Both the position numbers and the translations under genes were made by a program. Positions 3,056-48,377 of a stretch of DNA of 64,000 bases are shown here, piece after piece. The DNA lies in the NCBI GenBank assembly GCA_019359695.1, contig JAHHGV010000046.1, forward strand, positions 1 to 64,000. Direction: 5' to 3'. How positions within the stretch are numbered: the stretch's first letter is position 1; each line of letters starts with the position of its first letter. Source of the stretch: Brasilonema angustatum HA4187-MV1. GTDB lineage: Bacteria; Cyanobacteriota; Cyanobacteriia; Cyanobacteriales; Nostocaceae. The notes under the pieces were generated by a model. It was not told the origin of the DNA, did no database searches, and worked only from the letters and a program-made list of their open reading frames with translations.

Positions 3056-3772
3056 CTACAAACTCTGCTCTTTAGTTTGATTCGAAAACTTCCTCCCACT
3101 TCCATAGATAAAATAGTTTTCTGTCTCTTTTACATTAGCTTTAAAACCGACTTTTGTCAGCTTGTTTTGCAGTTCATCTAGCTGATAAAAAATTTTTACA
3201 ATTTGATATTCTTGACCATTATTTAACATCCGACTTATATATATACTGCCGGTATCATCAAGAATATGGTTGTTAGCCGTGGATGTAAGTTCAAAGCGCG
3301 AGTCAACAATAAAAACTTGTCCACCAACACGAACAGATTTATAGACTTTTGTTAAAAATGATTCTAGTAATTCTGGCGGTACATGAGATAACCAAAAGGA
3401 GAAAAATACTAAATCATATTCAGCATTGGGTTCCCAGGTAAATAAATCAATTTGGTGATATTTCACCTTGGGTGAATTTAACTTGCTGCGATTAATTTCA
3501 ATCACTTCTTGAGAAGCATCTATTGCAGTAATTTTCTTAGCAATCTTTAAAAGCTCTTGTGTCCAGATTCCCGTTCCACTGGCTAACTCTAAGATTTCCT
3601 CGGTTTGTCCAACTTGCTGTAAAGCCTGTCTAACAACATCTACTTCGTTGAACCAGCGCCCATTTACTTCCTCACCGCGATCATAACGACCAAGGCGATA
3701 GAACCATTCATCATATTCGTTGGCTCTGGCGCGATAGTAGGCAATTTGTTCTTGAATAATTTTATCTGTCAT
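3056..3772 (-). CDS. class I SAM-dependent methyltransferase
   Basis: A 238-residue Rossmann-fold methyltransferase. Motif I is ILELASGTGIWTQ (about residues 60-72), followed by an acidic residue at the end of strand 2 (ITAIDAS) and a motif II/III region YDLVFFSFWLSHVPPELLES. The substrate cannot be read from the sequence. It is a single gene, preceded on its promoter side by a pair of ATAC/GTAT half-sites (3821-3857) like those upstream of the SsuA gene at 20655, which suggests co-regulation with the organosulfur genes. Class call firm, substrate unknown. Confidence 0.8.
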   Translation of the reverse strand: MTDKIIQEQIAYYRARANEYDEWFYRLGRYDRGEEVNGRWFNEVDVVRQALQQVGQTEEILELASGTGIWTQELLKIAKKITAIDASQEVIEINRSKLNSPKVKYHQIDLFTWEPNAEYDLVFFSFWLSHVPPELLESFLTKVYKSVRVGGQVFIVDSRFELTSTANNHILDDTGSIYISRMLNNGQEYQIVKIFYQLDELQNKLTKVGFKANVKETENYFIYGSGRKFSNQTKEQSL

Positions 3773-3820: not shown

Positions 3821-3857
3821 AAAATACTGTAATCTTATATAAAATTAGTAGTATTAT
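3821..3857. promoter_or_regulatory. inverted ATAC/GTAT half-sites, 27-bp variant of the shared motif
   Basis: AAAATACTGTAA at 3821-3832 faces TAGTAGTATTAT at 3846-3857, about 50 bp upstream of the methyltransferase start at 3772. The ATAC to GTAT distance is 27 bp instead of the 24 bp seen at the stronger sites. The same arrangement, with the ATACTGTAA half next to the gene and an ATACTACT half distal, occurs at 20591-20627. Role inferred. Confidence 0.35.
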
Positions 3858-14570: not shown

Positions 14571-16244
14571 TTATGCAGCAGCACCCACTTTGACTTTTGT
14601 CTGGTGTAGAGGTGTTGCTTTCACCCAGACTTGATCCAAACCACCACTCGTTAAATAGTGTTGTTGGTTCGCATCCATCTCTGGATAGTCTAGGTGTTTG
14701 TGCATACCGCGAGTCTCTTTACGTTGTAGGGCGCTGCTGTACATCCATCGGGCTGTGGCTACCATTGCAGCTGCTTCCCTCACCCGGACAATGTTGTGAG
14801 TGTCTACTTGACTAGTGCGAATCTCTTTCCAGAGGTGATTTAATCTGTGCAATGATTCTGTCAAGCCTTTTTCGTTGCGGAAATAATTGCGATCGTACGG
14901 GAAGACTTCAGCTTGGGTTGCTTGGATAACTTCTTCGGTGTTGATTTGATGAGCAGCACTGCAGGCGGGTTTCCCGCCGTAGGTGACTGACGAACCCGAA
15001 GGGTGTTGACTAGCATTTGTCAATCCCGCTTCACCGACTGCTTGAACAGAACGCTGTGTTCTCCACCCAGCAAACTTATGGGCATATTCAGCCGCAGATT
15101 TTCCAGCCCAGTATCCAGAAGATATCGCCCAAGCTGCATTGTGACTACCACCACCAGTAAACCCACCACAAATTAATTCTCGTGTGGCAGCATCGCCAGC
15201 CGCATAAAGTCCCTGAACTGATGTGGCGCAGGTAAAATCGACAATCCGAATGCCACCCGTACCACGTACTGTTCCTTCTAAACGCAAGGTAACAGGGAAG
15301 CGTTGGGTAAAGGGATCGATACCTGCGCGATCAAGAGGTAAGAAGAAATTAGGCTGTGCCTTCCGCATATGTGCCTGCATTTCTTCAGTCGCTTGATCCA
15401 AGATGGCGTAAACTGGTTGTGTCAACAGGGTTTGAGCAATAACTGAACGTCCTCGTTGGGAACCTGCACCAGGTATCGGTGTGCCATCTTCGTAAGTAAA
15501 AGTTGCCCAATTGTAAAACAGGGTTTTGGTGACAGAGGAAAAGGCGGGAGAGATGCCGTAGGCGTTGGAAAACTCCATTCCCGACATCTCAACACCCGCT
15601 TCTGCTGCCATTAGGTATCCATCCCCAGTCAACACATTGCAACCGAGTGCCTTGCTCAAAAAAGCACAGCCACCAGTCGCAATGATTACTCCACCTGCAC
15701 GCACAACCCATTGCTTGCCAGTCTGACGGTTAACCCCCGTTGCCCCAGCAACAGCACCTTCTGCATCTACCAATAGTTGCAAGGCGGGACTATGATCTAA
15801 TATTGTTACCCCCGCCCGTTTAATTTGCTTGCGCATCAAGCGCATATATTCGGGTCCCTGTAGACTGCGTCGATAGGGTTTTTGCTGTTGATCAACAGGA
15901 AAGGGATAACCCCACTTTGCTAATAGGTTGACGTTTGTGTAAGTTTGATTCAATACTTGCTGCATCCAGTCACGGTTGGAGAGAAATCCCCCCAAAGCTT
16001 CTCGACTCGCGATCGCAGCTTCTCTACTTTCGGGTTCTGGTGCTACATACCACACACCATTACCCGATGCTGCTGCACATCCACTGGTACCGCAGTAACC
16101 CTTATCTACCAAAACAACTCTCGCACCAGCAGATGCAGCACTCCAAGCAGCCCAAGTACCAGCCGGACCACCGCCAATAACTAGAACATCTGTCTGTAAA
16201 TTGGGATCAACATCAATATTAATAGTAGATGAACTCTGGGTCAT
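14571..16244 (-). CDS. FAD-dependent oxidoreductase of the AprA/fumarate reductase flavoprotein family
   Basis: A 557-residue flavoprotein. The N-terminal dinucleotide-binding motif is VLVIGGGPAGTWAAWSAASA followed by GARVVLVDKGYCG. Later come GVIIATGGCAF, GMEFSNAYG, and the FAD-closing GLYAAGDAATRE with CGGFTGGGSHNAAWA. The C-terminal helical domain starts near QINTEEVIQATQAEVFPYDR, as in AprA and SdhA. About 35 residues before it (VGEAGLTNASQHPSGSSVTY then GGKPACS) correspond to a GC-rich palindromic repeat and look inserted. The gene pairs with the ferredoxin downstream. Upstream lie the conserved 34-bp palindrome (16394-16427) and a Cys-rich upstream ORF. It has a good SD (GAGGCGAGG). The substrate is unknown. 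Confidence 0.85.
   Translation of the reverse strand: MTQSSSTINIDVDPNLQTDVLVIGGGPAGTWAAWSAASAGARVVLVDKGYCGTSGCAAASGNGVWYVAPEPESREAAIASREALGGFLSNRDWMQQVLNQTYTNVNLLAKWGYPFPVDQQQKPYRRSLQGPEYMRLMRKQIKRAGVTILDHSPALQLLVDAEGAVAGATGVNRQTGKQWVVRAGGVIIATGGCAFLSKALGCNVLTGDGYLMAAEAGVEMSGMEFSNAYGISPAFSSVTKTLFYNWATFTYEDGTPIPGAGSQRGRSVIAQTLLTQPVYAILDQATEEMQAHMRKAQPNFFLPLDRAGIDPFTQRFPVTLRLEGTVRGTGGIRIVDFTCATSVQGLYAAGDAATRELICGGFTGGGSHNAAWAISSGYWAGKSAAEYAHKFAGWRTQRSVQAVGEAGLTNASQHPSGSSVTYGGKPACSAAHQINTEEVIQATQAEVFPYDRNYFRNEKGLTESLHRLNHLWKEIRTSQVDTHNIVRVREAAAMVATARWMYSSALQRKETRGMHKHLDYPEMDANQQHYLTSGGLDQVWVKATPLHQTKVKVGAAA
14964..15003. repeat. GC-rich palindromic repeat inside the FAD protein gene
   Basis: The palindrome GGCGGG-TTT-CCCGCC at 14964-14978 is followed by CGAACCCGAAGGG at 14991-15003. 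The reverse complement CCCTTCGGGTTCG recurs in intergenic DNA at 50608-50620, followed there too by a CAGT-type sequence. The gene frame stays open through it. Confidence 0.55.
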
Positions 16245-16393: not shown

Positions 16394-16427
16394 AAAATAC
16401 GGTTAATATGTCAGTTTACAGTATTTT
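16394..16427. promoter_or_regulatory. 34-bp palindromic operator candidate (FAD protein promoter)
   Basis: AAAATACGGTTA, a 10-bp spacer, then TTACAGTATTTT. The arms match at 10 of 12 positions and the ATAC to GTAT distance is 24 bp. The arrangement is the same as at 22829-22862 and 46560-46593. It is about 150 bp upstream of the FAD protein start. Confidence 0.6.
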
Positions 16428-16768: not shown

Positions 16769-17809
16769 TTAAGGGGCTGGATTGGGATAACGTGTATGAA
16801 CTGCATCTAACTCTGCTAAAATATCTTGGTTGAGAATTACATTCACGCTGTTAATATTTTCTTGTAGTTGTTGTAAGGATGTTGCACCAATAATTGTGCT
16901 ACTCACAAACCACCGACTCCGCACGAAAGCCAAAGCTAATTGTGTAGGCTGCAAATTATATTTTCTGGCAATTGATACATAAGCTGCTACAGCGTCATTT
17001 ACATTTGGTTTGAAATAGCGTTGTCCAAAACCTTGAAATAGAGACAATCGTGTATTTTCTGGTTTTTGATCGTCTGTGTACTTCCCAGATAACAAACCAA
17101 ATCCTAAAGGACTATAAGCTAGTAAGCCAACATTGGTATAACGAGAAACTTCTGCTAAAGCTGAATCAAATACACGATTAAGCAAGTTATAAGCGTTTTG
17201 AATGGAGATCACTTTGGGTAATCCTAGCTGTTTGGCAATATGAACAAACTCACTAACACCCCAAGGTGTCTCATTACTCAAGCCCAGATAGCGAATTTTA
17301 CCTGCTTTGATGACATCTGCAAATGCTTGTAATTGTTCGGCAATACTCACAGTTTCACGTTCCAAATCAGGTTTGTACTCTGTCTGCCCAAAGGTGGGAA
17401 CATAGCGTTCTGGCCAGTGAATTTGGTACAAATCTATATAATCTGTTTGTAATCGCTTCAGACTATCATCTACCGCTTGCTTAATGTTGTTGTGGTTAAT
17501 TTGGAGATTTCCTCCCCGCAGCCATTTAAAAGGACGACCGGGACCTGCAATTTTTGTGGCAATGATGAGTTGGTTCCGCTGCTGTTTTTTCAACCATTCG
17601 CCAATGTAAGCTTCCGTTTTTCCTTGAGTTTCTCCACGAGGCGGTACTGGATACATTTCCGCAGTATCAATAAAATTTATCCCTTGAGCAATAGCATAAT
17701 CTAACTGTTGATGCGCTTCCTCAATGGTATTCTGCTGTCCATAAGTCATGGTTCCCAGACAAATTTCAGAAACCTTGAGGTCACTCTCGCCAAGTTGGTT
17801 GTACTTCAT
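16769..17809 (-). CDS. aldo/keto reductase (Tas/YghZ-like)
   Basis: A 346-residue TIM-barrel NADPH-dependent reductase. It shows LGTMTYGQQNTIEEAHQQLD near residue 18, the catalytic Asp and Tyr in NFIDTAEMYPVPPRGETQGK, the Lys in IIATKIAGPGRP, and the His in DLYQIHWPERY. The C-terminal NADPH pocket includes STIIGATSLQQLQENI. The WPERYVPTFG insert and length match the Tas group of long AKRs. It is monocistronic, with a weak version of the shared palindrome upstream (17874-17907). The native carbonyl substrate is unknown. Confidence 0.9.
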   Translation of the reverse strand: MKYNQLGESDLKVSEICLGTMTYGQQNTIEEAHQQLDYAIAQGINFIDTAEMYPVPPRGETQGKTEAYIGEWLKKQQRNQLIIATKIAGPGRPFKWLRGGNLQINHNNIKQAVDDSLKRLQTDYIDLYQIHWPERYVPTFGQTEYKPDLERETVSIAEQLQAFADVIKAGKIRYLGLSNETPWGVSEFVHIAKQLGLPKVISIQNAYNLLNRVFDSALAEVSRYTNVGLLAYSPLGFGLLSGKYTDDQKPENTRLSLFQGFGQRYFKPNVNDAVAAYVSIARKYNLQPTQLALAFVRSRWFVSSTIIGATSLQQLQENINSVNVILNQDILAELDAVHTRYPNPAP

Positions 17810-17873: not shown

Positions 17874-17907
17874 AATATACAGTAAGCTTACCGATTAACC
17901 GGAGTTA
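17874..17907. promoter_or_regulatory. degenerate copy of the 34-bp palindrome
   Basis: AATATACAGTAA, 10-bp spacer, then TAACCGGAGTTA. The left arm and the AACCG of the right arm fit and the spacing is right, but GTAT has become GGAG. It lies about 65 bp upstream of the aldo/keto reductase start. Weak on its own. Confidence 0.3.
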
Positions 17908-18478
17908 ATATCTCAAAAATGGATATTACCAGATATTCATTTCGGAAACAAGCTTAGATGACTAATTTTCAATTATAGATCAAATGTAGCTAAAAATACT
18001 CACTATATACAGTTTTTCTCAAAGACTGCTATCTAGTAAGATAATCAACATTAATTCAACCAAATTACCGTATTTTTTCAATAAGGTAATTTGGTTATTG
18101 CCATAGAGTTATTTTCTCTTACCTAGTTTCGTCGCTAGGAGGGGAAAGTTTTGATGATGTGTTGAGGATTTTCCAGATACAAAGCTGGAGTCATTTTGTG
18201 GTGGGCTTACTTCAGGCATGCTACGCGAAGCCCGACAGGGCCTAGGCGGCTATGCCATCATTTTTTATGAGTAGCAAGCGTACAAGATAAATTATGACTC
18301 CTAAATTCGCTTCTGTAAGTGCTCATTGCTGGCTTTGTTCTTTTAAATTGATACCTTTCTAGCGAAGTTATTACTAAGTCCTTTTGACTATTTAGCAGAA
18401 GCATTGTATCAAGTGATTCTGCCAATTTTCTCTATGAATTTAGAGTAAATTCATTCACTTTTTAGGTTGAGGAGTGTC

Positions 18479-20512
18479 ATGTCGAAATTTCGTTGGAATT
18501 CTAGATGGATACTATTTTTGATTTCGCTGCTAGATATGCAGATCGTCTTAGTTCTTAATCCTGCAAAAAGTTGGGCAGATACACCTGAATATTCTTCATC
18601 TACCGATTCATCAATGTCATCTGCCGTGAGGAGTACTGCGATGGTCCCAAGGGGACCCGCCCAAAGGGGGTTAAGCGTTTGCGTAGCGCGCCCTATGCCT
18701 GCGGCACGGCTACGCCTATCGGCGCTAGCTCTACCGAAGGTAATCGCTCCTGAGCAATATAAAGGGTCTGTTCTCCAAAGCAGCAATTCTGTAATGGATC
18801 GCTTTACGCTGATCTCACAAGTACCCTCATCAGTGCCCTCACTGTCACCTATTTCTGTCCCTGCTAACCCTTCACCAGGCGATGCAGGGGTCACTCCAAA
18901 GACTTCTGTCTCTGAACTATCGGATGGGAAGCGATCGCCTACTTCTGTCCCTGCTAACCCTGCACTCAAGAATGATTCGTCGAAGCTACCAAACCGCGAT
19001 GTAACAATAGGGCAGGTTAACTCTGTCTCCCAGCTATCTGATGTGAAACCCACCGACTGGGCATTTCAGGCATTGCAATCGTTAGTAGAACGGTATGGTG
19101 TGATTGCGGGTTATCCTGACCAGACCTTTCGGGGTAATCGGGCAATGAGCCGTTACGAGTTTGCCGCAGGGCTGAATGCAGCACTAAATCGAATTAGTGA
19201 GCTACTTGCTGCCGGAACAAGCGATCTGGTCAGAAAAGAGGACTTAGTTACCCTGCAAACACTACAAAATCAATTTGGAGCAGAACTGGCACAACTACGG
19301 GGACGAGTAGATGCGCTAGAGGTACAGACAGCAAACCTTGAACAACGTCAGTTTTCCACCACAACTAAACTCACAGGTGAAGTTGAGACTGTTATTGGGG
19401 GAGTTCTGACGGGCAATAACGTCGTCACCAAGAGACCTGCAGCTCATGTCATCACATTTCAAGACCGGGTTCGTCTACTTTTAAACACCAGTTTTACCGG
19501 CACTGATCAACTACGGGTGACACTTCAAGCTGGAAATATTACCCCTATAGGAGGAACAAGAAGTGGATTACTCGGAACCACTGACGGGAGAACTTCTGAT
19601 AATGCTAGTCCTGTTTATCCAAACAATGACGTTTATATCTCTGGACTTCGTTATCAGTTTAAACCTTTTAAAAGTACCCAAGTCAACATTTTTCCCCAGT
19701 CCGATGGAGCTTTTGAGATCGGCTTGAGTGGTCCTATCAATCCATATTTTGAAGGATCTGCTGCTAATGCGATCTCACGATATGCACGGCGGAATATGGT
19801 CTATGATTATGGAGATACTGGTCCGGGAATTGCGATACTCCAGCAATTCGGTAAACAGTGGCAATTAGGGTTAGCGTACACCGCCATAAATGGTGATAAT
19901 CCTACACCTAACAATGGCTTATTTTCAGGCAGGTATGTAGCTCTGGGACAGTTATCATACTCCACCCCCAGTCAAGATTTTCGGGTGGCTTTAACTTACG
20001 CCAATACCTACAGCCCACCGAACACCATAGGTCAAACTGGGACAAACTTCGGTCCAGTAATCGGGAGTAACCTGGCAAACAGTACCGTGGCTGGAAGGGG
20101 AACTGTAGGTAATCTTTACGGCATACAAGCTTTGTATAAAATTAGTCCCAAGTTTGCAGTCAATGGGTGGGTAGGTTATTCAGCACACCGCTATCTGGGA
20201 GTCGGAGATGGTCAGGCCTGGGACTGGGCGGTAGGACTGGCATTCCCTGATCTTTTTAAAAAAGGTAGTTTAGGCGGTCTTTTCGTCGGTATGGAGCCGA
20301 AACTGACTGCCTTGAGTAAGAATGTAGATTTGGGAGCAGGTCTTGGACAAGTGGACAAGGATACGTCCCTACACGTTGAGGCATTTTACCAATATCAAAT
20401 CAACGATTATATTGCGATTACGCCAGGTTTAATCTGGATTACTGCACCGGACTCTAATGCCGACAATCCTGGTAGTGTAGTTGGTTGGCTACGTACCACC
20501 TTCAAGTTTTAA
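18479..20512 (+). CDS. SLH-OprB family outer-membrane porin
   Basis: A 677-residue cyanobacterial porin. It has a signal peptide (ILFLISLLDMQIVLVLNPAK, then SWAD), a low-complexity linker rich in Ser and Pro, an SLH domain near residues 180-237 (VSQLSDVKPTDWAFQALQSL, then GVIAGYPDQTFRGNRAMSRY), a short coiled coil, and an OprB beta-barrel from about 300 to the C-terminal Phe (WLRTTFKF). SLH binds the cell wall while the barrel gives solute passage, here plausibly for sulfonates or anions. The ATG at 18479 follows GAGGAG and is preferred over TTG at 18467. A block of GC-rich repeats (18641-18747) lies in frame in the N-terminal linker. A SsuA gene follows. Confidence 0.9.
   Translation: MSKFRWNSRWILFLISLLDMQIVLVLNPAKSWADTPEYSSSTDSSMSSAVRSTAMVPRGPAQRGLSVCVARPMPAARLRLSALALPKVIAPEQYKGSVLQSSNSVMDRFTLISQVPSSVPSLSPISVPANPSPGDAGVTPKTSVSELSDGKRSPTSVPANPALKNDSSKLPNRDVTIGQVNSVSQLSDVKPTDWAFQALQSLVERYGVIAGYPDQTFRGNRAMSRYEFAAGLNAALNRISELLAAGTSDLVRKEDLVTLQTLQNQFGAELAQLRGRVDALEVQTANLEQRQFSTTTKLTGEVETVIGGVLTGNNVVTKRPAAHVITFQDRVRLLLNTSFTGTDQLRVTLQAGNITPIGGTRSGLLGTTDGRTSDNASPVYPNNDVYISGLRYQFKPFKSTQVNIFPQSDGAFEIGLSGPINPYFEGSAANAISRYARRNMVYDYGDTGPGIAILQQFGKQWQLGLAYTAINGDNPTPNNGLFSGRYVALGQLSYSTPSQDFRVALTYANTYSPPNTIGQTGTNFGPVIGSNLANSTVAGRGTVGNLYGIQALYKISPKFAVNGWVGYSAHRYLGVGDGQAWDWAVGLAFPDLFKKGSLGGLFVGMEPKLTALSKNVDLGAGLGQVDKDTSLHVEAFYQYQINDYIAITPGLIWITAPDSNADNPGSVVGWLRTTFKF
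18641..18747 (+). repeat. composite GC-rich repeat block within the porin gene
   Basis: The block contains CCCAAGGGGACCCG and GCGTTTGCGTAGCGCGCC, and ends at 18722-18747 with an inverted, diverged copy of the small dispersed repeat (GCGCTAGCTCTACCGAAGG). It encodes Arg/Ala/Leu-rich residues (GPAQRGLSVCVARPMPAARL) unlike the Ser/Pro linker on either side, while keeping the porin frame open. Confidence 0.6.
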
Positions 20513-20590: not shown

Positions 20591-20627
20591 CTTATACTAC
20601 TTTAAATCGATAAAATTACAGTATAAT
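20591..20627. promoter_or_regulatory. inverted ATAC/GTAT half-sites, 27-bp variant, upstream of ssuA
   Basis: CTTATACTACTT at 20591-20602 faces TTACAGTATAAT at 20616-20627, ending 27 bp before the SsuA start codon. The ATAC to GTAT distance is 27 bp. The gene-proximal half reads ATACTGTAA on the complementary strand and the distal half ATACTACT, mirroring the site at 3821-3857. Confidence 0.35.
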
Positions 20628-20654: not shown

Positions 20655-21755
20655 ATGATTAGCTCAATTTATCAGCAATTTATGACAGCGTTGAAGAGAT
20701 TCGGAGTATTCCAATTTGCGAAGAAAAACAAACTACTACCGGTTATACCTATTCCCGTCGCTGGGGCTTTTTTCACTGGCTTATGCCTCAGCGTTTTATT
20801 TGCCGCTTGCACAGCCAACAATGCAAGCAATACTACTGCTGTATCTACTAATAATTCAACTCAAGCCAAAGCATCAGTAGTCAGGTTTGGCTATCAAAAA
20901 TCAGCAATTCTCCTCAAGAGTAAAGGAGTATTAGAAAAGCGTTTTCAACCTCAAGGAGTATCTGTACAGTGGATTGAATTTCCGGCAGGACCTCAACTTT
21001 TAGAGGCAATGAATGTAGGCAGTATTGACTTTGGACATACTGGAGAATCACCGCCAGTTTTTGCCCAAGCAGCAGGAGCCTCATTAACCTATATTGCTGG
21101 AATTGCACCTAATCCAGCCGGTCAAGCTATTCTTGTTCCCAAAAATTCTCCGATCAAAACAGTAACTGACCTAAAAGGTAAAAAGGTTGCTTTTCAAAAA
21201 GGTTCTAGCGCTCATTATCTACTTTTACAAATTTTAGAAAAATTTGGTTTGAAATACAGTGATATTCAACCTGTATCTCTACCACCTGCTGATGCACGTG
21301 CTGCATTAGTCAAGGGAAGTTTGGATGCTTGGGTAATTTGGGATCCATTTTATGCTGCGGCACAAAAATCTATAAATGCTCGTGTTTTAATTGATGGCAC
21401 AGGAATCAACAAACAGGGAGGATATTATCTAGCTAGTCGCAAGTTTGCTACAAATAATCCAGAAACAATTAAAGCAATATTAGAAGAAATTAAAAATCTT
21501 GAATCTTGGTCAGATCAACATCGGAATGAAGTTGCAGCAACACTTTCACCTGTCTTAGGAATTGATTTAGAAACCATGAAAATCGCAACACAGCGAAAAA
21601 TTTTTGGTGTTGTACCAATTGATGAAAATCTCATTGCTTTACAGCAGAAAGTCGCTGATAAATTCTATGAGTTAAAATTGATTCCCAAACAAATTAATGT
21701 TAGAGAAGCAATACTGTCACCAGAGCAATATGCTGCTTTTTCACCGAAAGTATAA
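20655..21755 (+). CDS. SsuA-like ABC transporter substrate-binding lipoprotein 2
   Basis: A 366-residue aliphatic-sulfonate-type binding protein. A long N-terminus leads to a lipobox (SVLFAAC, Cys near residue 54). The mature part shows GPQLLEAMNVGSIDFGHTGE then SPPVFAQAAGA, DLKGKKVAFQKGSSAHYLLL, and the interlobe AWVIWDPFYAA. These features define the SsuA/TauA class, which binds sulfonates or sulfate esters in the periplasm. It is the intact relative of the remnant at 4003-4317. It is followed by a hairpin (21770-21800) and a nitroreductase gene. Confidence 0.9.
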   Translation: MISSIYQQFMTALKRFGVFQFAKKNKLLPVIPIPVAGAFFTGLCLSVLFAACTANNASNTTAVSTNNSTQAKASVVRFGYQKSAILLKSKGVLEKRFQPQGVSVQWIEFPAGPQLLEAMNVGSIDFGHTGESPPVFAQAAGASLTYIAGIAPNPAGQAILVPKNSPIKTVTDLKGKKVAFQKGSSAHYLLLQILEKFGLKYSDIQPVSLPPADARAALVKGSLDAWVIWDPFYAAAQKSINARVLIDGTGINKQGGYYLASRKFATNNPETIKAILEEIKNLESWSDQHRNEVAATLSPVLGIDLETMKIATQRKIFGVVPIDENLIALQQKVADKFYELKLIPKQINVREAILSPEQYAAFSPKV

Positions 21756-22675: not shown

Positions 22676-22828
22676 TTATTAACATTGATAGTGGGTTTTC
22701 CAAAGCTATCAGTATATAACGTGCGTTTATCCAGACAAGCGCGGAATGCCAACATCAATCGTAGTTTGGCATTTTTTTATAAAAAGATACTTGCCTTTTT
22801 CGGCTGAGTGTGTGAGACTACTATAAAT

Positions 22829-22862
22829 AAAATACTGTTTCTTTACCTTTAAACCGTATTTT
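22829..22862. promoter_or_regulatory. 34-bp palindromic operator candidate (ssuB promoter), best copy
   Basis: AAAATACTGTTT, a 10-bp spacer, then AAACCGTATTTT; the arms match at 11 of 12 positions. It lies 112 bp upstream of the Cys-leader ORF and 337 bp upstream of ssuB. Sites with the same half-sites and spacing occur at 16394 and 46560. Confidence 0.65.
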
Positions 22863-22973: not shown

Positions 22974-23009
22974 ATGTCAATTCAAAAGTGTTGTTGTGAT
23001 CTTGGCTGA
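22974..23009 (+). CDS. 11-residue Cys-leader peptide upstream of ssuB
   Basis: The ORF MSIQKCCCDLG begins 4-8 bp after a strong AGGAGCG ribosome-binding site and ends at TGA (23007-23009). Three consecutive UGU codons make it a candidate sensor of Cys-tRNA supply. It lies 189 bp before ssuB in a leader with direct repeats (TTCTGATACGRGG at about 23130 and 23165) that could form alternative structures. Cys-rich leader peptides regulating sulfur genes are known in other bacteria; no homologue is claimed here. The gap 22676-23198 holds no other gene. Confidence 0.5.
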   Translation: MSIQKCCCDLG

Positions 23010-23198: not shown

Positions 23199-24071
23199 AT
23201 GAAATCTGAAAAACGTGGAATGCATTTAAAACTCGAAGGGTTACGAAAATCCTTTGGGAATAAAATAGTTTTGCAAGAAATTGACTTAGATATTCAGCCG
23301 GGGGAATTTGTCGCCATCGTCGGTCGGAGTGGATGTGGTAAAAGTACGATGCTGCGCCTAGTTGCTGGACTAGATGCTCCGAGTGGAGGTAGCGTTTTGT
23401 TAGATGACAACTTTTCAGGTCATCGTATTAACCCAAGTATCCGAATGATGTTCCAGGATGCGCGATTACTACCTTGGCAGCGGGTACTAGCAAATGTGGA
23501 GTTAGGCTTAGTAGGTTCTAACTCAAAGGTGTATGCACGGCAAACGGCTTTGCAAGTCTTGCATGCTGTGGGGCTGGAAGACCGGGCAAATGAATGGCCC
23601 GCCGTCCTTTCTGGTGGACAACGCCAACGGGTCGCATTAGCAAGAGCGCTAGCAAGTCAACCTGCTTTGTTGCTGCTTGATGAACCGTTGGGAGCCTTGG
23701 ATGCACTAACGCGGATTGAAATGCAGCAATTACTTGAGAAACTATGGCAAGAGCAAGGATTTACTGCATTGCTGATTACCCATGATGTGGAAGAAGCCGT
23801 TGTGCTAGCAGACCGAGTGGTATTAATAGAAAACGGTCAAATTGGCTTAGATTTGCAGATTAATCTTCCACGTCCACGAGTTAGAGGAGATGTGCTACTT
23901 GCTCTGACAGTGGAGAAGATTTTACACCGGGTGATGGGTAAGCAAGAGCGCGAGGCGCAAGCAGGGATCCACCCAAGGGGCGATCGCCTGCATGAGTTGG
24001 AACCACAACATTCATCTTTCTTGAATTCACCTACTGCAGAAATTCCAAAACATTTGGAGAAAGTTTTGTGA
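23199..24071 (+). CDS. ssuB: sulfonate ABC transporter ATP-binding protein
   Basis: A 290-residue ATPase of the SsuB/TauB class. Walker A is GRSGCGKST at residues 42-50, the Q-loop [11 protein letters not shown] near 88, signature [15 protein letters not shown] near 137, Walker [13 protein letters not shown] near 158, and the H-loop [25 protein letters not shown] is typical of the nitrate/sulfonate/taurine group. It has a GAGG ribosome-binding site 8 bp before the ATG. It is the only importer ATPase in the window and the natural partner of the permease at 27641 and of the SsuA-like proteins. The last 40 residues are an unconserved tail. Confidence 0.92.
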
Positions 24072-30699: not shown

Positions 30700-31481
30700 A
30701 GGATGTAAGACTTACTTATTGATATAAGTTATGTTGCTGAGTTCAACAATTTCTGATTTATCGAAACTCAGTCAAGCTTAGAGATATATGCTTATTTTTC
30801 TTTAATCAGTGTCAGCAAAATCAACTTCTATAGTTTGGGAATAGGAACATCAAACAAGCTAGTCAAATATATGAACTATGCTGTTTGCTGTATATCTACA
30901 ATTTTATAACAGATAAATACTTTTGTGTATTTGTTTGGCACAACACATCTGAAATTATTTTAATCTCCACTTCTACAGGGGAAAAACAGGGAATTAAATT
31001 TGAGTTTCTGATCTCGCAATTTTCGACAATATCAGACAAAAAACAACTGAGACTAGATAAGCCTTTTGGGCTTTTACATAGCTTAAATTCGACAAATTCG
31101 ATGTAAATATTGTGGTTTTCAAAAAATCCTTGAGCTACTCCTCCAGAATAGAAAAATTACCTATTGCATTGTCAAAAAATTCTGACATATAGCAAGCAAT
31201 TTCATATTTAAAAATAAAAAATACTTTTGATAAACGTAGACCCAAGAATATTGCATGAACAGATAGAAATACGATATGCAGAAAAATAAAGTGTATTATG
31301 TGAGACGCTCATTCAAAGACCCGCGTGTCGCTTTGCAACGAGCGCGTCTTTAGGTGATCGCACCCTCATGACAAGATAAAAAGCCGACTTTTCTAAAAAT
31401 AGGCTCTTGACTTCCACATAATACATGAGACACTAATAATTAGATAACCTAAATATACCACTGAGGAAGTGCATTCTACTC
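30700..31481. other. 782-bp AT-rich intergenic region between divergent transcripts
   Basis: No convincing gene is present; a 73-codon frame at 30885-31106 has no recognisable features. CTGAGTT and AACTCAG near 30735-30767 can pair. GTGTATTATGTG (31291-31302) and CACATAATACAT (31415-31426) form an inverted repeat with about 112 bp between, enclosing a GC-rich palindromic stretch (GACGCTC, AGCGCGTC). These may be a small palindromic element or the promoter region of the efflux operon. Confidence 0.4.
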
Positions 31482-35563: not shown

Positions 35564-36886
35564 TTAATTGCCCTCGCATCTAAGTTTAATAATTATATTT
35601 ATAAGTTCTTCTATCGTCATGATTTTACCGTAATAGTTATCAGAAATATCAATATCAAATTCTCCCTCGATAAATATTATCAGTTCTGCTCCATCTAAAA
35701 CATCCATTCCTAATGAATTATCAGGAGCATCATATCTTTCCGAATATTCACGGGTAGAGAAACTACCCCAAAAGCCTGAACTGATAGGTTTTAAACTAGT
35801 ATAGTCTCCTAAAAATACTGTCGATTCAAGCGTGATATTGTCTAAAGGAACATCGCACAAGCCTGAAAGATACTGCTGTAAATCTATAAACATATTTTCA
35901 TGTTGTAAAATTTTCTTATTAGGAAGTATAAGCTCTGATTTATTATTTTTAGTTTTTTCTAGCTCATTTACACTTTCTAAACTCTCTGTTTTATTTAGAT
36001 TTATCAAACATTCTGAGTACTGCAAATAATCAGTCTGTTTTAAAGCGAATTCAGTAAGCTCTTGACTAACTTTAATTTTTAATTCATCCCCATAAATCAC
36101 CAATTTTCTTTGTAAATAAGTTAATTTACCATACTTCAGTTCTGCGGCTTTTTTAAGGTTATAGTCTTTCTCAGCTTGTGCAATCTCAGCATTAATGGTA
36201 TCAATGGTATATTGCAATTCTGCCAAAGGATTAAATTCTTTTTCGTATTTTCCTGCGATAACAAGTGCTGCTTTAATTTCAAATTGCTCACACTTGGCAA
36301 TATCAATTATGCGATTAATTTTATTTGCATCCTTCAGTACAGAAAAACTGACTTTATCTTCGACTTTTTTTGCTGTTTCTTCAATCCAATTTAGAATATT
36401 CCAGGCATGGATGTATTGTTGAACGTATTTTAAACTTAAAGCACTTCCAATAGCTTTCATCAGTGAATCATAGAATTTCTGCCCAAGCTTTGCTATGATT
36501 TTCTCTGAAGTTACGCTGGGGTGACGTAAATATAGCTGGATAACAGCATAATAAGCGGCTACACGTGCAGATGCACGAACATGAATCTCGAAACTCTTCA
36601 CTGAAAAATTAACCCCAGGGGTACTTTCTTGTAAAGTATTTGTACAGACATAGATCAATGTTTCTATATCTGCACCTAATTTACTAATAAATCCACTATG
36701 ATAAAGTTCGGTTGCTTGCTGTAATGTTGGGACATACTCCTCTTGAGCCAAACGCTTGCCTAAGTCACAACCAAATTCGTAAGCTGATTTATCGTCAAGA
36801 TACTCCAAATTTTCGGTGTCTAAAAATAATGGGCGAATAGCGTTGAGTAAATCAATAAGTTCGTCAAGCTTTTTTGTTATTTCCAT
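35564..36886 (-). CDS. unknown protein with ClpB middle-domain-like segment and ACP-like C-terminus
   Basis: A 440-residue protein I do not recognise as a whole. Residues about 1-215 are mostly helical and unassigned. Residues about 222-263 (INAEIAQAEKDYNLKKAAEL, KYGKLTYLQRKL) closely resemble the coiled-coil middle domain of ClpB, but no AAA+ ATPase domain is present. Residues about 325-435 look like an acyl carrier protein: LCDVPLDNITLEST, a 30-residue insert, then LGMDVLDGAELIIFIEGEFD and IDI. The phosphopantetheine Ser of the usual DSL motif is Val (DVL). It is therefore not a normal carrier. Monocistronic, AT-rich. Function unknown. Confidence 0.75.
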   Translation of the reverse strand: MEITKKLDELIDLLNAIRPLFLDTENLEYLDDKSAYEFGCDLGKRLAQEEYVPTLQQATELYHSGFISKLGADIETLIYVCTNTLQESTPGVNFSVKSFEIHVRASARVAAYYAVIQLYLRHPSVTSEKIIAKLGQKFYDSLMKAIGSALSLKYVQQYIHAWNILNWIEETAKKVEDKVSFSVLKDANKINRIIDIAKCEQFEIKAALVIAGKYEKEFNPLAELQYTIDTINAEIAQAEKDYNLKKAAELKYGKLTYLQRKLVIYGDELKIKVSQELTEFALKQTDYLQYSECLINLNKTESLESVNELEKTKNNKSELILPNKKILQHENMFIDLQQYLSGLCDVPLDNITLESTVFLGDYTSLKPISSGFWGSFSTREYSERYDAPDNSLGMDVLDGAELIIFIEGEFDIDISDNYYGKIMTIEELINIIIKLRCEGN

Positions 36887-37205
36887 AAATCAACTCTCCA
36901 ATACAATTACTACGTGAGTACAAGTAGTTTAGCTTATGTTTAACAGTATATTCACGTAAAATAAGTATATTGTAGCAACTAGTTGGATTAATGTAAGCCA
37001 GACTTTAGGCTGGATAGAGTAAAGCAAAACCCAACACCCAAAAGTTTTAATTAACATCGCATCTCATCGCTGGAAATTCCCCTTTAGTACTTCGGACGAA
37101 AAGAGCGATCACACTCCGACAAATATTCCAAACTACTCTACCTTAATGTATGTCATAATTACTGCTAAAAGCTACTGTATGCCGACCAATTTAACGTAAC
37201 TTTGT
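36887..37205. other. 319-bp intergenic region between divergent genes
   Basis: Divergent promoter region of the ClpB-M/ACP-like gene and the aminotransferase gene. No gene, clear hairpin or copy of the shared palindrome is seen. A single CTACTGTAT half-site lies at 37173-37181. Confidence 0.3.
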
Positions 37206-38417
37206 ATGAGTGAAGAAATAAACTTGACTCCCACAGTCAAGCAGAAAATTTCTCAGAAGGCAAACCAGTTCACAGAATCAGTCATTCGAGAAATGACTAG
37301 AGTTGCATTACAATATGGTGCGGTGAATCTGGCGCAAGGATTTCCTGATTTTCCTTGTCCTGATGAATTAAAGCGGGCAGCTTGCCAAGCAATAGAGGAA
37401 GACGTTAACCAATACGCGATCACTTGGGGAGATAAACCTTTCCGTCACGCTATAGCAGAGAAAGTCAAGTGGTATCTGGGTTTAGACATAGATCCTGAAC
37501 GACAAATCACCGTCACCTGTGGTTCGACAGAAGCAATGGCTGCTGTAATGCTAGCAACTCTGAATCCGGGTGATGAAGTGATTGTATTTGAGCCATATTA
37601 CGAAAACTATGGTCCCGATGCAGTTTTGGCTGGTGCAATTCCTCGTTATGTGTCGCTGCATCCGCCTGAGTGGACATTTGATGAAACAGAACTACGTCAG
37701 GCGTTTAATGAACGCACAAAAGCCATTATCATTAACACACCCCATAACCCAACAGGTAAAGTCTTTACTGGTGAAGAACTCACCCTAATTGCTGAACTTT
37801 GTCAGAAGTGGGATGTCTTGGCATTCACAGATGAAATCTACGAACACATTCTTTATGACAAAACGCAGCATATTGCAATGGCGACTCTGCCAGGAATGTC
37901 TGAGAGAACTATCACTATCAATGGTCTTTCCAAAACCTACAGTGTCACTGGTTGGCGAGTTGGTTACATCCTAGCAAATTCAGAATTAACAGGAGCAATT
38001 CGCAAAGTTCATGATTTTCTCACCGTTGGCGCACCTGCACCCTTGCAAAGGGCTGGAGTCGCGGCGATGCAACTTCCTGTTAGCTACTATGAGGAATTGG
38101 CAAAGCTTTACCACCAAAAGCGAGACGATATTCTGCGGATTTTGGATGCAGTGGGAATTCCCTATTTTATTCCAAAAGGAGCTTACTACGTGTTTGCTGA
38201 CATCTCATCTTTTGGTTACAAAAATGATCTAAAATTTACTGAGTATTTAATCAAAGAAATTGGTGTTGCCGTAGTTCCGGGTTCCAGCTTTTTCTCGCAA
38301 TCAGAGGCGGGTAAAAATTTTATTAGATTTTGTTTTAGTAAGAAACCAGAGACTTTGGCAAAGGCAGGAGAGCGGTTGTTGAAATTAGAATCAACTCTAC
38401 AAACGGCATCGTTGTGA
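37206..38417 (+). CDS. PLP-dependent aminotransferase (YbdL/KAT-like)
   Basis: A 403-residue fold-type I aminotransferase. AVNLAQGFPDFPCPDELKRA is the opening typical of the kynurenine/glutamine transaminase K and YbdL (methionine aminotransferase) group. Further on are NTPHNPTGKVF (substrate carboxylate and PLP contacts), DEIYEHILYD (PLP-contacting Asp and Tyr), the Schiff-base Lys243 in GLSKTYSVTGWRVGY, and the C-terminal Arg in NFIRFCFSKK. Methionine or another sulfur-containing amino acid is a fair guess given the group and the region, but unproven. It is monocistronic. Confidence 0.9.
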   Translation: MSEEINLTPTVKQKISQKANQFTESVIREMTRVALQYGAVNLAQGFPDFPCPDELKRAACQAIEEDVNQYAITWGDKPFRHAIAEKVKWYLGLDIDPERQITVTCGSTEAMAAVMLATLNPGDEVIVFEPYYENYGPDAVLAGAIPRYVSLHPPEWTFDETELRQAFNERTKAIIINTPHNPTGKVFTGEELTLIAELCQKWDVLAFTDEIYEHILYDKTQHIAMATLPGMSERTITINGLSKTYSVTGWRVGYILANSELTGAIRKVHDFLTVGAPAPLQRAGVAAMQLPVSYYEELAKLYHQKRDDILRILDAVGIPYFIPKGAYYVFADISSFGYKNDLKFTEYLIKEIGVAVVPGSSFFSQSEAGKNFIRFCFSKKPETLAKAGERLLKLESTLQTASL

Positions 38418-44616: not shown

Positions 44617-46101
44617 TTAGCGACCAACACTCACCAGATATTCTTGAGCTTCTTTCTCAATTAGCGTACCCTTGAAGAAGTCACGATTGAGACTGGTGTA
44701 CAATTCCAAAGGATGGATAGATAAGAAGTAACGCAAGTCTTCTTCGCTGAGAATGCCACGTTCCACAAAGCTATAAGCGTTGGAGGTGACAGCTGTGATA
44801 TCTGGCACATCCCAGTGACCGGAATCGGAACCCAAGAAGGCTTTTACTCTGTCACCAAATGGATTCGCTTTTTGATGGAAGGCATAGGCAACGCGGGTGT
44901 CGTCTGATTCTGTGCCAAAGTAGAAGTGATTTAGGAAGCGATCGCGCACATCTTCCGGTTTTGTAATTCCAGCTTCTGCAAATTCATTGAGATCACCTGG
45001 ATCTTCCGGTGCAAAGTATTTTCCGTGGAAGCCTAAACCACTACCAATTTCCTCAAAGCGATCGCTCAATTCTGCTCCACCATAACGAGCGAACAGTTCG
45101 CGCAATTCTTCCTTATTTACGTTCCCTGGATGATTGTTCTGTAAAATTTCCGGATTGCGAGTTTCCCAGTACCATATGATATCAGTATAAAGACTTGCGC
45201 CCCAAGCAGAACCACCTTCTAGGAAAGCAAACTTCAAGGTAGGGAAACGGCGGGTAACACCACCAAAAAACAGTGCTTTGCAGAAGGCTTCACCCGCTGA
45301 GGCAAAGTGTCCAATATGATTGTATTGGTAATTAGAAATCGAGCGGCGAGCAGTCCAACCCATACCAGAAGCATGGGTAGTCGGGACAACTTTCAATTCC
45401 ACACACTTTGCCCAGAAGGGATCGTAATCATAAGCGCTATCCAAGGCAAAGGTATCAATCCAGGTTGCTTCCCGTTGCACTTCTTCAGGATATTTCTCAA
45501 AGCCAGGAATAACGCGGGTGACGTAACCAGGAATTTGAATCGCTTTGAGTCCCAGTTCTTTAACTGCATATTCTAATTCCTCAATTCCTTCTTGGGGTGT
45601 ATTTAGAGGAATTGTGGCAATAGGAGTGAGGCGATCACTATAAGCACGGAATATATCTGCATGATAAAGGTTCGCCGCACGGCAAACAGCCCGCCGCATT
45701 TCTTCGTTCTTGATTTGCGGTGCTAGCGTTGCCAAATTCGGATACAGCACAGCAAAGTCTGTCCCCGCTTCTTGTAACCGTTCATGCAGCAGCTTTGGCA
45801 GGCTGATAGTTGCCAGATTTAACGTGTCCTTAGTAGGACGACCCCAGAAGGGAGGACGAGCTGTACGATAAGTACGGCGTTCTTCCCAAGTTTGCTGGAA
45901 CCAACGATAACGTCCAGCACCAGGTAGATGCGATCGGAAGCTATCGGCAATCTTAGAACCACCCACTTGAGCTAAATAATCGAGAAAGGCTGGCTCAAAT
46001 TCCTGGGTATGGACATCAGTATCAATGATGGGGTAACCTAGTTGCTCCCGAATCTGTGCTGATCGAGACTTCTTTGTGGGACGTTCAAGCGCAATTGTCA
46101 T
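44617..46101 (-). CDS. amidohydrolase-family (Amidohydro_2) enzyme, copy A
   Basis: A 494-residue TIM-barrel metal-dependent hydrolase or decarboxylase of the ACMSD-like group. YPIIDTDVHTQEF near residue 23 carries the D-x-H metal motif; further ligands lie in VVPTTHASGMGW and GHFASAGEAF; the C-terminal FLGSDSGHWDVPDIT supplies the metal-binding Asp. Members decarboxylate aromatic acids or hydrolyse ring compounds. It heads the organosulfur minus-strand block and has a paralogue at 61819-63357 that heads another. Upstream lie an ORF of 33 codons and a degenerate shared palindrome (46355-46388). The substrate is unknown. Confidence 0.85.
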   Translation of the reverse strand: MTIALERPTKKSRSAQIREQLGYPIIDTDVHTQEFEPAFLDYLAQVGGSKIADSFRSHLPGAGRYRWFQQTWEERRTYRTARPPFWGRPTKDTLNLATISLPKLLHERLQEAGTDFAVLYPNLATLAPQIKNEEMRRAVCRAANLYHADIFRAYSDRLTPIATIPLNTPQEGIEELEYAVKELGLKAIQIPGYVTRVIPGFEKYPEEVQREATWIDTFALDSAYDYDPFWAKCVELKVVPTTHASGMGWTARRSISNYQYNHIGHFASAGEAFCKALFFGGVTRRFPTLKFAFLEGGSAWGASLYTDIIWYWETRNPEILQNNHPGNVNKEELRELFARYGGAELSDRFEEIGSGLGFHGKYFAPEDPGDLNEFAEAGITKPEDVRDRFLNHFYFGTESDDTRVAYAFHQKANPFGDRVKAFLGSDSGHWDVPDITAVTSNAYSFVERGILSEEDLRYFLSIHPLELYTSLNRDFFKGTLIEKEAQEYLVSVGR

Positions 46102-46354: not shown

Positions 46355-46388
46355 AAAATACTGTTTGTCTACCAAACTATCGGATTTT
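46355..46388. promoter_or_regulatory. degenerate 34-bp palindrome upstream of amidohydrolase A
   Basis: AAAATACTGTTT, the same left arm as the ssuB site, a 10-bp spacer, then CTATCGGATTTT. Spacing matches exactly; the right arm keeps C, G, A and TTTT but lacks GTAT. It is about 255 bp upstream of the amidohydrolase. Confidence 0.4.
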
Positions 46389-46559: not shown

Positions 46560-46593
46560 ATAATACTGTAATTAGATCGATATACCGTATTAT
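46560..46593. promoter_or_regulatory. 34-bp palindromic operator candidate (GST/CmcJ/SsuA promoter)
   Basis: ATAATACTGTAA, a 10-bp spacer, then ATACCGTATTAT; the arms match at 10 of 12 positions with ATAC to GTAT 24 bp apart. It lies 183 bp upstream of the GST gene and about 460 bp from the divergent amidohydrolase gene. The remaining divergent region 46220-46775 holds no recognised gene. Confidence 0.6.
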
Positions 46594-47429: not shown

Positions 47430-47519
47430 ACCCACAGCAGTGGGTGCTGCTCAAAAGTAGGGCAATGCTTTCTTACAGCGTGGTTTGTCACCAAAACATT
47501 GAACACAAGGATGCAACCT

Positions 47520-48377
47520 ATGAGCCTATCCAGCCCAATTTTATCTAAACCCGTCTTAGAGGATTTGCCTTATGTTGAGGCAGTTCTCAATTACCTGACT
47601 CCAATGGCAGAGAAGCCTGTTAACTACACCTACGAACCACCACCAGGTGTTCCAAGACAGAACGGAGTATACGAGGCGCACAAGCTGCCGATTCGCAATG
47701 CTAGAGCGATTGCACAAGATTTATCCTTAGAGCGAGAGGGCTTTGCTTACGCCGCCCACAAAAGCGCCGTCCGCGACTTTTACGATGAGGACGAGGTACG
47801 TCGCGTCTACTACCCAGAAGCCGAAAAACTTTTGGCAGATGTGACGGGCGCAAAAAAGGTATTGGTGTTCGATCACAACGTTCGTAATATTGAGCGGGCG
47901 AAGCAGGGTGCAAAGGAGCCAGTAAAGCGGGTACACAACGACTTCACCGCCAAGTCCGGTTATAGTCGCGCCCGTGCTGTGCTGACAGCATTTGGTACAG
48001 ATGACGCTGACGAGCTTCTGCAGCATCGGTTCAGCGTTGTCAACGTCTGGCGACCGATTGCTAAACCAGTGCAAGAGTCTCCATTGGCAGTGTGTGATGC
48101 GCAAAGCATAGCGCCCCAAGACTTGGTAGCTGGCGACCTCGTATACCGTGATCGCGTTGGCGAGACTTACGCGATTACATACAACCCGACGCACCGCTGG
48201 TTCTACTTTCCGCAATTGCAACCGAACGAGGCGCTATTTATCAAGTGCTTCGATTCTGCGGAGGATGGACGGGCGCGGTTTGCCGCCCACACTGCGTTCG
48301 ACGACCCGACAAGCCCGCCGGACGCCCCACCGCGCCAGAGTATTGAACTGCGGGCGTTAGTTTTTTATGCCAACTAG
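47520..48377 (+). CDS. CmcJ/NvfI-family oxygenase
   Basis: A 285-residue protein of the CmcJ/NvfI family (2-oxoglutarate/Fe-type hydroxylases and desaturases). Landmarks are EAHKLPIRNARA, RDFYDEDEVRRVYYPEAEKL, VLVFDHNVRNIERAKQGAKE followed by PVKRVHNDFTAKSG, where HND gives the H-x-D iron ligands, then VVNVWRPI and QLQPNEALFIKCFDSA with HTAF, the distal His region. The start at 47520 follows AAGGA; 47511 is possible. The gene is GC-richer than its neighbours, suggesting transfer. The substrate is unknown; an oxidative step on a sulfur compound is inferred from context. Confidence 0.8.
   Translation: MSLSSPILSKPVLEDLPYVEAVLNYLTPMAEKPVNYTYEPPPGVPRQNGVYEAHKLPIRNARAIAQDLSLEREGFAYAAHKSAVRDFYDEDEVRRVYYPEAEKLLADVTGAKKVLVFDHNVRNIERAKQGAKEPVKRVHNDFTAKSGYSRARAVLTAFGTDDADELLQHRFSVVNVWRPIAKPVQESPLAVCDAQSIAPQDLVAGDLVYRDRVGETYAITYNPTHRWFYFPQLQPNEALFIKCFDSAEDGRARFAAHTAFDDPTSPPDAPPRQSIELRALVFYAN

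Follow-up and report, generated by a model that had tools for sequence, protein, structure and literature searches.

A 34-bp palindrome found ahead of sulfur-type genes in Brasilonema angustatum HA4187-MV1 very probably serves as the place where a sulfur regulator docks in this cyanobacterial family, which would thereby control genes that acquire sulfur, from organic compounds among other sources. On the reading we think probable, it is the operator of a sulfur and cysteine regulon and is bound by a CymR-type repressor of the Rrf2 family, here called Rrf2A, encoded outside the window (the whole stretch of 64,000 nt that was analysed). An operator for a sulfur regulator had already been proposed in a sequence-only reading of this DNA, and is supported here by conserved sites upstream of sulfur-type genes and at the start of rrf2A. 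Genomes, loci and contigs are abbreviated G, L and C below, with G000 standing for the B. angustatum HA4187-MV1 genome itself.

The palindrome is real, and a position matrix recovered all five of the window sites named in that reading. Allowing up to three mismatches, the full 34-bp pattern occurs in the window only at 22829 (no mismatches) and 16394 (one); none of 100 shuffled windows contained two such matches. The 28-bp core, again with up to three mismatches, has nine matches against a shuffle mean of 3.02 (sd 1.62, largest 8, n = 100), so that the set is above chance, yet a lone three-mismatch copy means little against this background. Two matrices were used. The first was trained on 26 organosulfur sites, four of them from the window; it places ten window positions at 11.3 or higher, against 5.5 for the best of 20 dinucleotide shuffles. 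The second, which draws on both half-sites and makes the weaker copies convincing, was trained on 16 sites, all from other genera, and gives nine window sites scores of 16.4–38.5 and the tenth, at 31266, a score of 9.4. Among 100 dinucleotide-shuffled windows the best scores on this matrix average 1.0; four reach 8, and one reaches 18.6, which exceeds the three weakest of the nine sites (18043, 3821, and 37169). The ten positions, without assigned strand, are as follows, with the 26-site score given first and the other-genera score second:

22829–22862: the 34-bp palindrome, an exact match to the pattern (34.2; 27.4)
16394–16427: site (41.8; 38.5)
46560–46593: site (37.2; 34.4)
46355–46388: weaker site (26.6; 19.0)
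17874–17907: weaker site (27.0; 25.6)
20594–20627: site that the sequence-only reading did not have (25.1; 26.7)
18043–18076: weak site (18.0; 18.4, below the best shuffle)
3821–3854: weak site (20.8; 16.5, below the best shuffle)
37169–37202: weak site (14.1; 16.4, below the best shuffle)
31266–31299: borderline site (11.3; 9.4, in a range where four of 100 shuffles reach at least 8)

The consensus is about AAAATACNGTAAATCGATNNATTTACNGTATTTT, with a partly conserved centre, about ATCGAT, that had been missed. The ATAC and GTAT half-sites originally described are exact at 22829, but the right half is CCGGAG at 17874 and CGGAT at 46355. The claim that half-site centres lie 22 bp apart depends on how the half-sites are drawn; TACNGTA-like cores are, by arithmetic, centred 19 bp apart. 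Loose patterns have limited use at the genome scale. For the 28-bp pattern with three mismatches there are 524 forward matches genome-wide and 727 for the reversed control, which makes it uninformative, and for the 34-bp pattern with three mismatches there are 11 places in the B. angustatum genome versus four for the reversed control, so a lone match of that quality is weak. Realigned site flanks gave no clear promoter position, and the −10-like strings found are part of the motif itself. By eye, a string CTTGC/ATTTTTT...TGTG recurs before sites in gene orientation (for example at 22790–22828 and in L050, L060, and L061), and may be part of a promoter.

By Pfam, the window sites precede genes for SsuA/B/C-like transport, flavin enzymes, a glutathione transferase (GST), an amidohydrolase, a methyltransferase, and an aminotransferase. 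Two of these genes are referred to repeatedly:

14571–16244, minus strand: FAD-binding oxidoreductase (Pfam FAD_binding_2), downstream of the 16394 site
23199–24071, plus strand: ABC transporter ATPase, SsuB-like (Pfam ABC_tran; the name SsuB comes from the sequence-only reading)

The 22829 site is 337 bp before the ssuB frame, the first long gene downstream of it, and ssuB is also preceded by a site in L046, L047, and L050 (same genus) and in L061. The 16394 site is 150 bp before the FAD oxidoreductase, which is followed by ferredoxin and SsuA-like genes. Downstream of 46560 are the GST (46767, plus), a frame at 47499 (plus), and an SsuA-like gene (48870, plus), while 46355 precedes the amidohydrolase (44617–46101, minus) and heads a minus-strand gene run. 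The 17874 site is 65 bp before an aldo/keto reductase (16769–17809, minus) whose orthologue is likewise preceded in L046, L047, and L054, and the 20594 site is 28 bp before an SsuA-like gene (20655–21755, plus), with a counterpart in L047 at 10079. Among the weak sites, 18043 precedes an OprB porin (18467–20512, plus) and has counterparts in the same-genus loci L046 and L047; 3821 is 49 bp before the methyltransferase (3056–3772, minus), whose L061 orthologue has a site at 15862; and 37169 ends 4 bp before the aminotransferase (37206–38417, plus). The borderline site lies between 30699 (minus) and 31482 (plus). Two frames inside the sulfur cluster, 35564–36886 (minus) and 47499–48377 (plus), have no Pfam match. 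Just past the window there is a further site, on contig C8 at 66317 (L064:6315), at a TauD-like gene.

Between the 22829 site and ssuB there is also a short frame:

22974–23009, plus strand: possible leader peptide MSIQKCCCDLG, 11 codons with three consecutive Cys codons and a good ribosome site

It is near-identical in L046 and L047, of the same genus, and nothing like it is among the frames listed for L050, L060, and L061. It could be a cysteine-codon leader peptide, as an uncertain part of the system; a leader-peptide mechanism for ssuB was set aside, as the frame turns up in just three close genomes.

Across the B. angustatum genome, a sequence-only motif model with a threshold of E ≤ 0.05 picks out 14 distinct places. 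Contig C8 holds seven of them, including 66317 beyond the window. One, C81:103582, lies between cysE and an Rrf2 gene; two on C61 and two on C21 are beside genes like the SsuA, FAD, ferredoxin, luciferase-type, and acyl-CoA-dehydrogenase-type genes of the window; C11:33101 precedes a NIL-domain gene; and C57:240166 is flanked by two frames with no Pfam match. Judging by gene resemblance, 12 of the 14 appear to have sulfur-type genes around them. Raising the limit to E 1 adds seven weaker places, among them one on C56, where another SBP_bac_11 solute-binding protein gene begins 16 bp after it, one on C82 beside a TauE-type exporter, and C83:119615, near a sulfate-binding protein gene; those on C89 (upstream of a Na/Pi-cotransporter gene) and C60 (inside a gene) have no obvious sulfur tie. 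The stretches around two loose-pattern matches, C56:72191 and C57:229718, have no blast match to window proteins. The regulon looks wider than organosulfur, also taking in sulfate-binding protein, cysE, TauE-type exporter, and NIL-domain genes. Beyond transport and cysE, two regulator genes carry the site, the Rrf2 gene and a gene for a Crp-type protein, CysR.

The pattern extends well beyond this genome. With at most one mismatch allowed, a widened version occurs in 15 of 59 genomes (B. angustatum included), and its reversed control in none of the 59. In loci of other genera, sites are found before orthologues of window genes. These loci had been chosen by motif, and a test free of that bias was therefore made on homologues of the FAD oxidoreductase gene, found in the same 59 genomes by protein search alone (25 genes in 14 genomes). 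They were scored with a matrix that left out FAD-upstream sites, a site being a score of at least 10 within 500 bp. Sixteen of the 25 have a site upstream and none has one downstream; in 50 shuffles per gene, none reached 10. Among genes of 70–100% identity, 12 of 15 (the B. angustatum gene included) have a site no more than 500 bp upstream. The nine genes without one are those of G031 and G010 and seven further copies of 50–74% identity, and two of the upstream sites are more than 400 bp away. Sites are thus conserved upstream of orthologues, the point on which the sequence-only reading had staked its operator. With the motif model at E ≤ 0.05, matches are found in 41 of the 59 genomes and in 175 of 192 genomes of the family (B. 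angustatum in both).

Several loci stand apart. In G006 a perfect match (C35:9436–9469, L048) precedes a fasciclin-domain gene with no obvious sulfur tie. L055 (G032:C437) has strong sites close to short frames that match the Cys/Met-metabolism and PALP (cysteine-synthase-type) families; G032 has neither Rrf2A nor CysR at the cut-offs used, and these sites are possibly a decaying remnant of the regulon. A FosX-type hydrolase-like gene (L061:9075–9539, minus) lies among the organosulfur genes of G009.

The candidate binder is encoded elsewhere in the genome:

G000, contig C81, 103617–104081, plus strand: Rrf2A gene, outside the window; the site at 103582–103615 ends one base before it

The rrf2A gene starts with TTG (103617) just after that single base, and an in-frame ATG overlaps the end of the site. 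The 26-site matrix was not trained on rrf2A sites, yet finds them. A tree of 69 Rrf2 proteins comprises an A clade of 29 rows, a sister B clade of 18, a C clade of 14, and eight rows from other families. With a score of at least 8 counted as a site, 27 of the 29 A-clade rows have one upstream; the remaining two come from elsewhere in the order, outside the family, so all 27 in-family rows have it, often at the start codon. None of the 18 B rows has an upstream site, nor do the eight further rows. In the C clade, for which 330 bp were examined, four of 14 have a site, three of these at least 251 bp away and near divergent neighbours. The sequence-only reading had guessed at a regulator of LysR or Rrf2 type encoded outside the window. 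With a site abutting an Rrf2 gene and present in every in-family A-clade member, the Rrf2 guess is the better supported; no LysR-family member was found in Pfam and NCBIfam scans of selected site neighbours.

Gene neighborhoods add a link to cysteine synthesis. In L106, L110, and L231 a PALP/CysK-type gene comes after rrf2A, and in L105, L231, and L044 cysE is divergent from rrf2A; in B. angustatum, cysE alone was recognised next to rrf2A, with no cysK there. The rrf2B gene sits in an OprB-rrf2-cysK run. The B. angustatum cysK beside rrf2B (G000:C80, L152:3775–4698) is in two separate frames, from a broken gene or an assembly error, and an intact CysK partner was therefore not located in this genome.

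A block AACCGGAGTATACT or a close variant is found upstream of rrf2B in 11 of 12 genomes (L147, L149, L150, L151, L152, L154, L156, L158, L163, L165, and L166). In the alignment it reads like AAACCCCAGTGGAGAACCGGAGTATACT, with a variant in L151, and is absent in L160. It resembles the half-site AACNGTAGTATA before rrf2A, a likeness that, at the level of sequence, fits a shared family specificity, and the sister Rrf2 may use the block as its operator.

CymR of Bacillus subtilis and Staphylococcus aureus, also of the Rrf2 family, is the master repressor of cysteine metabolism and works with CysK. Rrf2A shares several features with it: an Rrf2 domain (PF02082, 120.2 bits against a cut-off of 30; TIGR00738, 111.7 against 73.3), an isoleucine tail, sulfur and cysteine genes as candidate targets, and linkage to cysK or cysE in several genera. 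It matches the solved B. subtilis CymR structure 2y75 with E 2.6e-17 and aligns with the NCBIfam CymR model (NF047409) up to the last position. That model's cut-off of 195 bits is not reached by any of three A-clade proteins (94.4 for the B. angustatum Rrf2A, 90.7, and 111.1), and Rrf2A is not filed as a CymR because of its 94.4 bits. In contrast to CymR, the proposed Rrf2A regulon includes SsuA/B/C-like genes, flavin enzymes, and OprB porins, and there are three Rrf2 paralogue groups in one cyanobacterial family. The C-terminus MYYI, in sequence like a CysK-binding tail, was found in all 32 Rrf2 proteins aligned, of A, B, and C types, and therefore does not single out Rrf2A. CysE ends in DGAGI in all five proteins examined. 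IscR, NsrR, and RirA belong to the same superfamily, as the TIGR00738 score above cut-off indicates; Rrf2A differs from them in having one cysteine, and the genes that bear sites serve sulfur acquisition rather than iron-sulfur assembly or NO. Each of three Rrf2A proteins examined has a single Cys and lacks the three-Cys Fe-S ligand set, while one B copy has three and one C copy four. CymR with CysK is described as a repressor of cysteine genes (PMC2869319), CysK as stabilising CymR on DNA (PMC12895370, PMC4961446), and a C-terminal isoleucine as the anchor of partners in CysK (PMC12895370).

From these parallels a mechanism can be proposed. Rrf2A would sit on the site probably as two dimers, since the site is a wide palindrome, and would repress while sulfur is plentiful; repression is preferred to activation because a site lies at the rrf2A start codon, promoter placement having given no position. 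By analogy with Bacillus CymR, CysK would grip the C-terminal isoleucine of Rrf2A and steady it on DNA. Under sulfur shortage, O-acetylserine would rise, CysK would let go, and Rrf2A would leave the DNA, allowing expression of transporters, monooxygenases, cysE, and rrf2A itself. CysE, with its DGAGI end, could compete with Rrf2A for CysK, and CysR would be a regulated second-tier factor. The scheme in full is offered tentatively, as less likely than not: within this family, a duplicated CymR-like Rrf2 with its own wide two-dimer operator would have come to master a large sulfur-scavenging regulon, CysK would do the sensing, and Rrf2A and CysE would compete with their isoleucine tails for the CysK active site.

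The other regulator with sites at its gene has to be weighed as the binder:

G000, contig C83, 125450–126031, minus strand: CysR, Crp/Fnr family, outside the window, beside sulfate ABC transporter genes

CysR of Synechococcus elongatus PCC 7942 is a Crp-family regulator of sulfate assimilation. The gene here resembles it in family and in its position beside sulfate transporter genes, and has the palindrome before it in many genera, in 11 of 15 loci read; no binding site, binding motif, or palindrome is named in the one CysR paper searched. CysR matches PF13545 and PF00325, with PF00027 at 25.8 bits, below its cut-off of 27.5. Its gene adjoins cysA and is near cysT and cysW in several genomes, with a sulfate-binding protein also among the neighbours. 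The 11 sites (score at least 8; L099–L107, L109, and L111) are just before or at the cysR start; L097, L098, L108, and L110 have none, and the best score in the cysR-cysA gap of B. angustatum itself is just 5.0, which counts against CysR as the binder. So does the spacing: NtcA, a Crp-family factor, has sites of the form GTA-N8-TAC, and the palindrome does not appear to have this spacing. A second Crp-type paralogue (G000:C83:128314–128820; L113, L114, and L115) is about 50% identical to CysR; its neighbour is an OprB porin, and its upstream region lacks a site.

The 192 family genomes were used to compare how the two genes track the sites, with presence called at E-value cut-offs of 1e-47 for Rrf2A and 1e-60 for CysR. 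No more than 36 candidates were scored in any genome, which makes the high match counts minimum values, and a palindromic site usually contributes twice, once per strand. Both genes are present in 121 genomes, with a median of 24 matches and at least eight in 108. Three have Rrf2A without CysR at the cut-off (22, 6, and 2 matches), 22 have CysR without a strong Rrf2A (median 7), bringing CysR to 143 of the 192, and 46 have neither (median 2). Spearman correlations with site number are 0.70 for Rrf2A and 0.67 for CysR; both track the sites, so the choice between them cannot be made from presence data alone. Genomes with no match at all number 0 of 124 with Rrf2A and 3 of the 22 with CysR but no strong Rrf2A. 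In the 22-match genome, G161, rrf2A-cysK has cysE divergent from it, and CysR is missing at the cut-off.

Of the 68 genomes without a strong Rrf2A match, 10 that bear sites were checked. In five (G015, G059, G104, G122, and G170) a divergent A-clade copy is present and has a site. The other five, G066 (20 matches), G089 (14), G149 (10), G008 (10), and G010 (9), have no A-clade copy among their matches at E 1e-20; all of these except G008 have CysR at the cut-off. Binding of the palindrome by Rrf2A is inferred only, because half of the site-bearing genomes checked lack its clade. Four of the five CysR-only genomes with at least 20 matches (G104, G170, G122, and G015, the exception being G066) have the divergent A-clade Rrf2 with a site, close to cysR in three of the four. 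Where rrf2A diverges from cysR or cysE, some sites fall in the gap between the two genes and could belong to either. That CysR is itself the binder, as a sulfur-starvation activator with rrf2A among its targets, was an earlier idea weakened by the Rrf2A results; the four genomes with sites and CysR but no A-clade Rrf2 speak for it, G161 and the three CysR genomes without matches against it, and we consider it unlikely, if the most credible of the alternatives.

Less likely still is a different regulator, or binding by several Rrf2 paralogues (B or C type) whose specificities overlap, with Rrf2A and CysR as mere members of the regulon. G008 has strong sites with neither protein at the cut-offs, G066 has sites without Rrf2A, and the B and C proteins are 40–54% identical to the Rrf2A query with a similar DNA-binding region; against this, B-type genes have no upstream site in any of their rows, and matches are few where Rrf2A and CysR are both absent. 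A promoter-like or dispersed element recurring by chance near these genes is unlikely given the conservation tests, to the point that we give it almost no weight: AT-rich strings at site edges do resemble −10 hexamers, but sites lie upstream of 16 of the 25 FAD genes and downstream of none, just five of 135 are well inside genes (in loci mostly picked for having sites), and flanking columns hold at most 0.49 bits of information while the motif is conserved across genera.

Repression by Rrf2A through the palindrome is the reading we hold most likely. In the open-licence literature, neither a CymR-like regulator nor this motif in cyanobacteria appeared in titles or the beginnings of abstracts among the matches listed. 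For the control of sulfur in filamentous cyanobacteria, the analysis names a candidate repressor and offers an operator that can be tested, and the sites suggest which of the uncharacterised cluster enzymes serve sulfur acquisition. Nostoc punctiforme is described as requiring an alkane sulfonate monooxygenase in order to colonise feathermoss (PMC7784912); control of such genes by a switch could therefore matter for a nitrogen-fixing symbiosis. If the full scheme is true, cysteine-synthase assembly would be linked directly with the uptake of organosulfur, and the genes concerned would include some of possible relevance to plant symbiosis.
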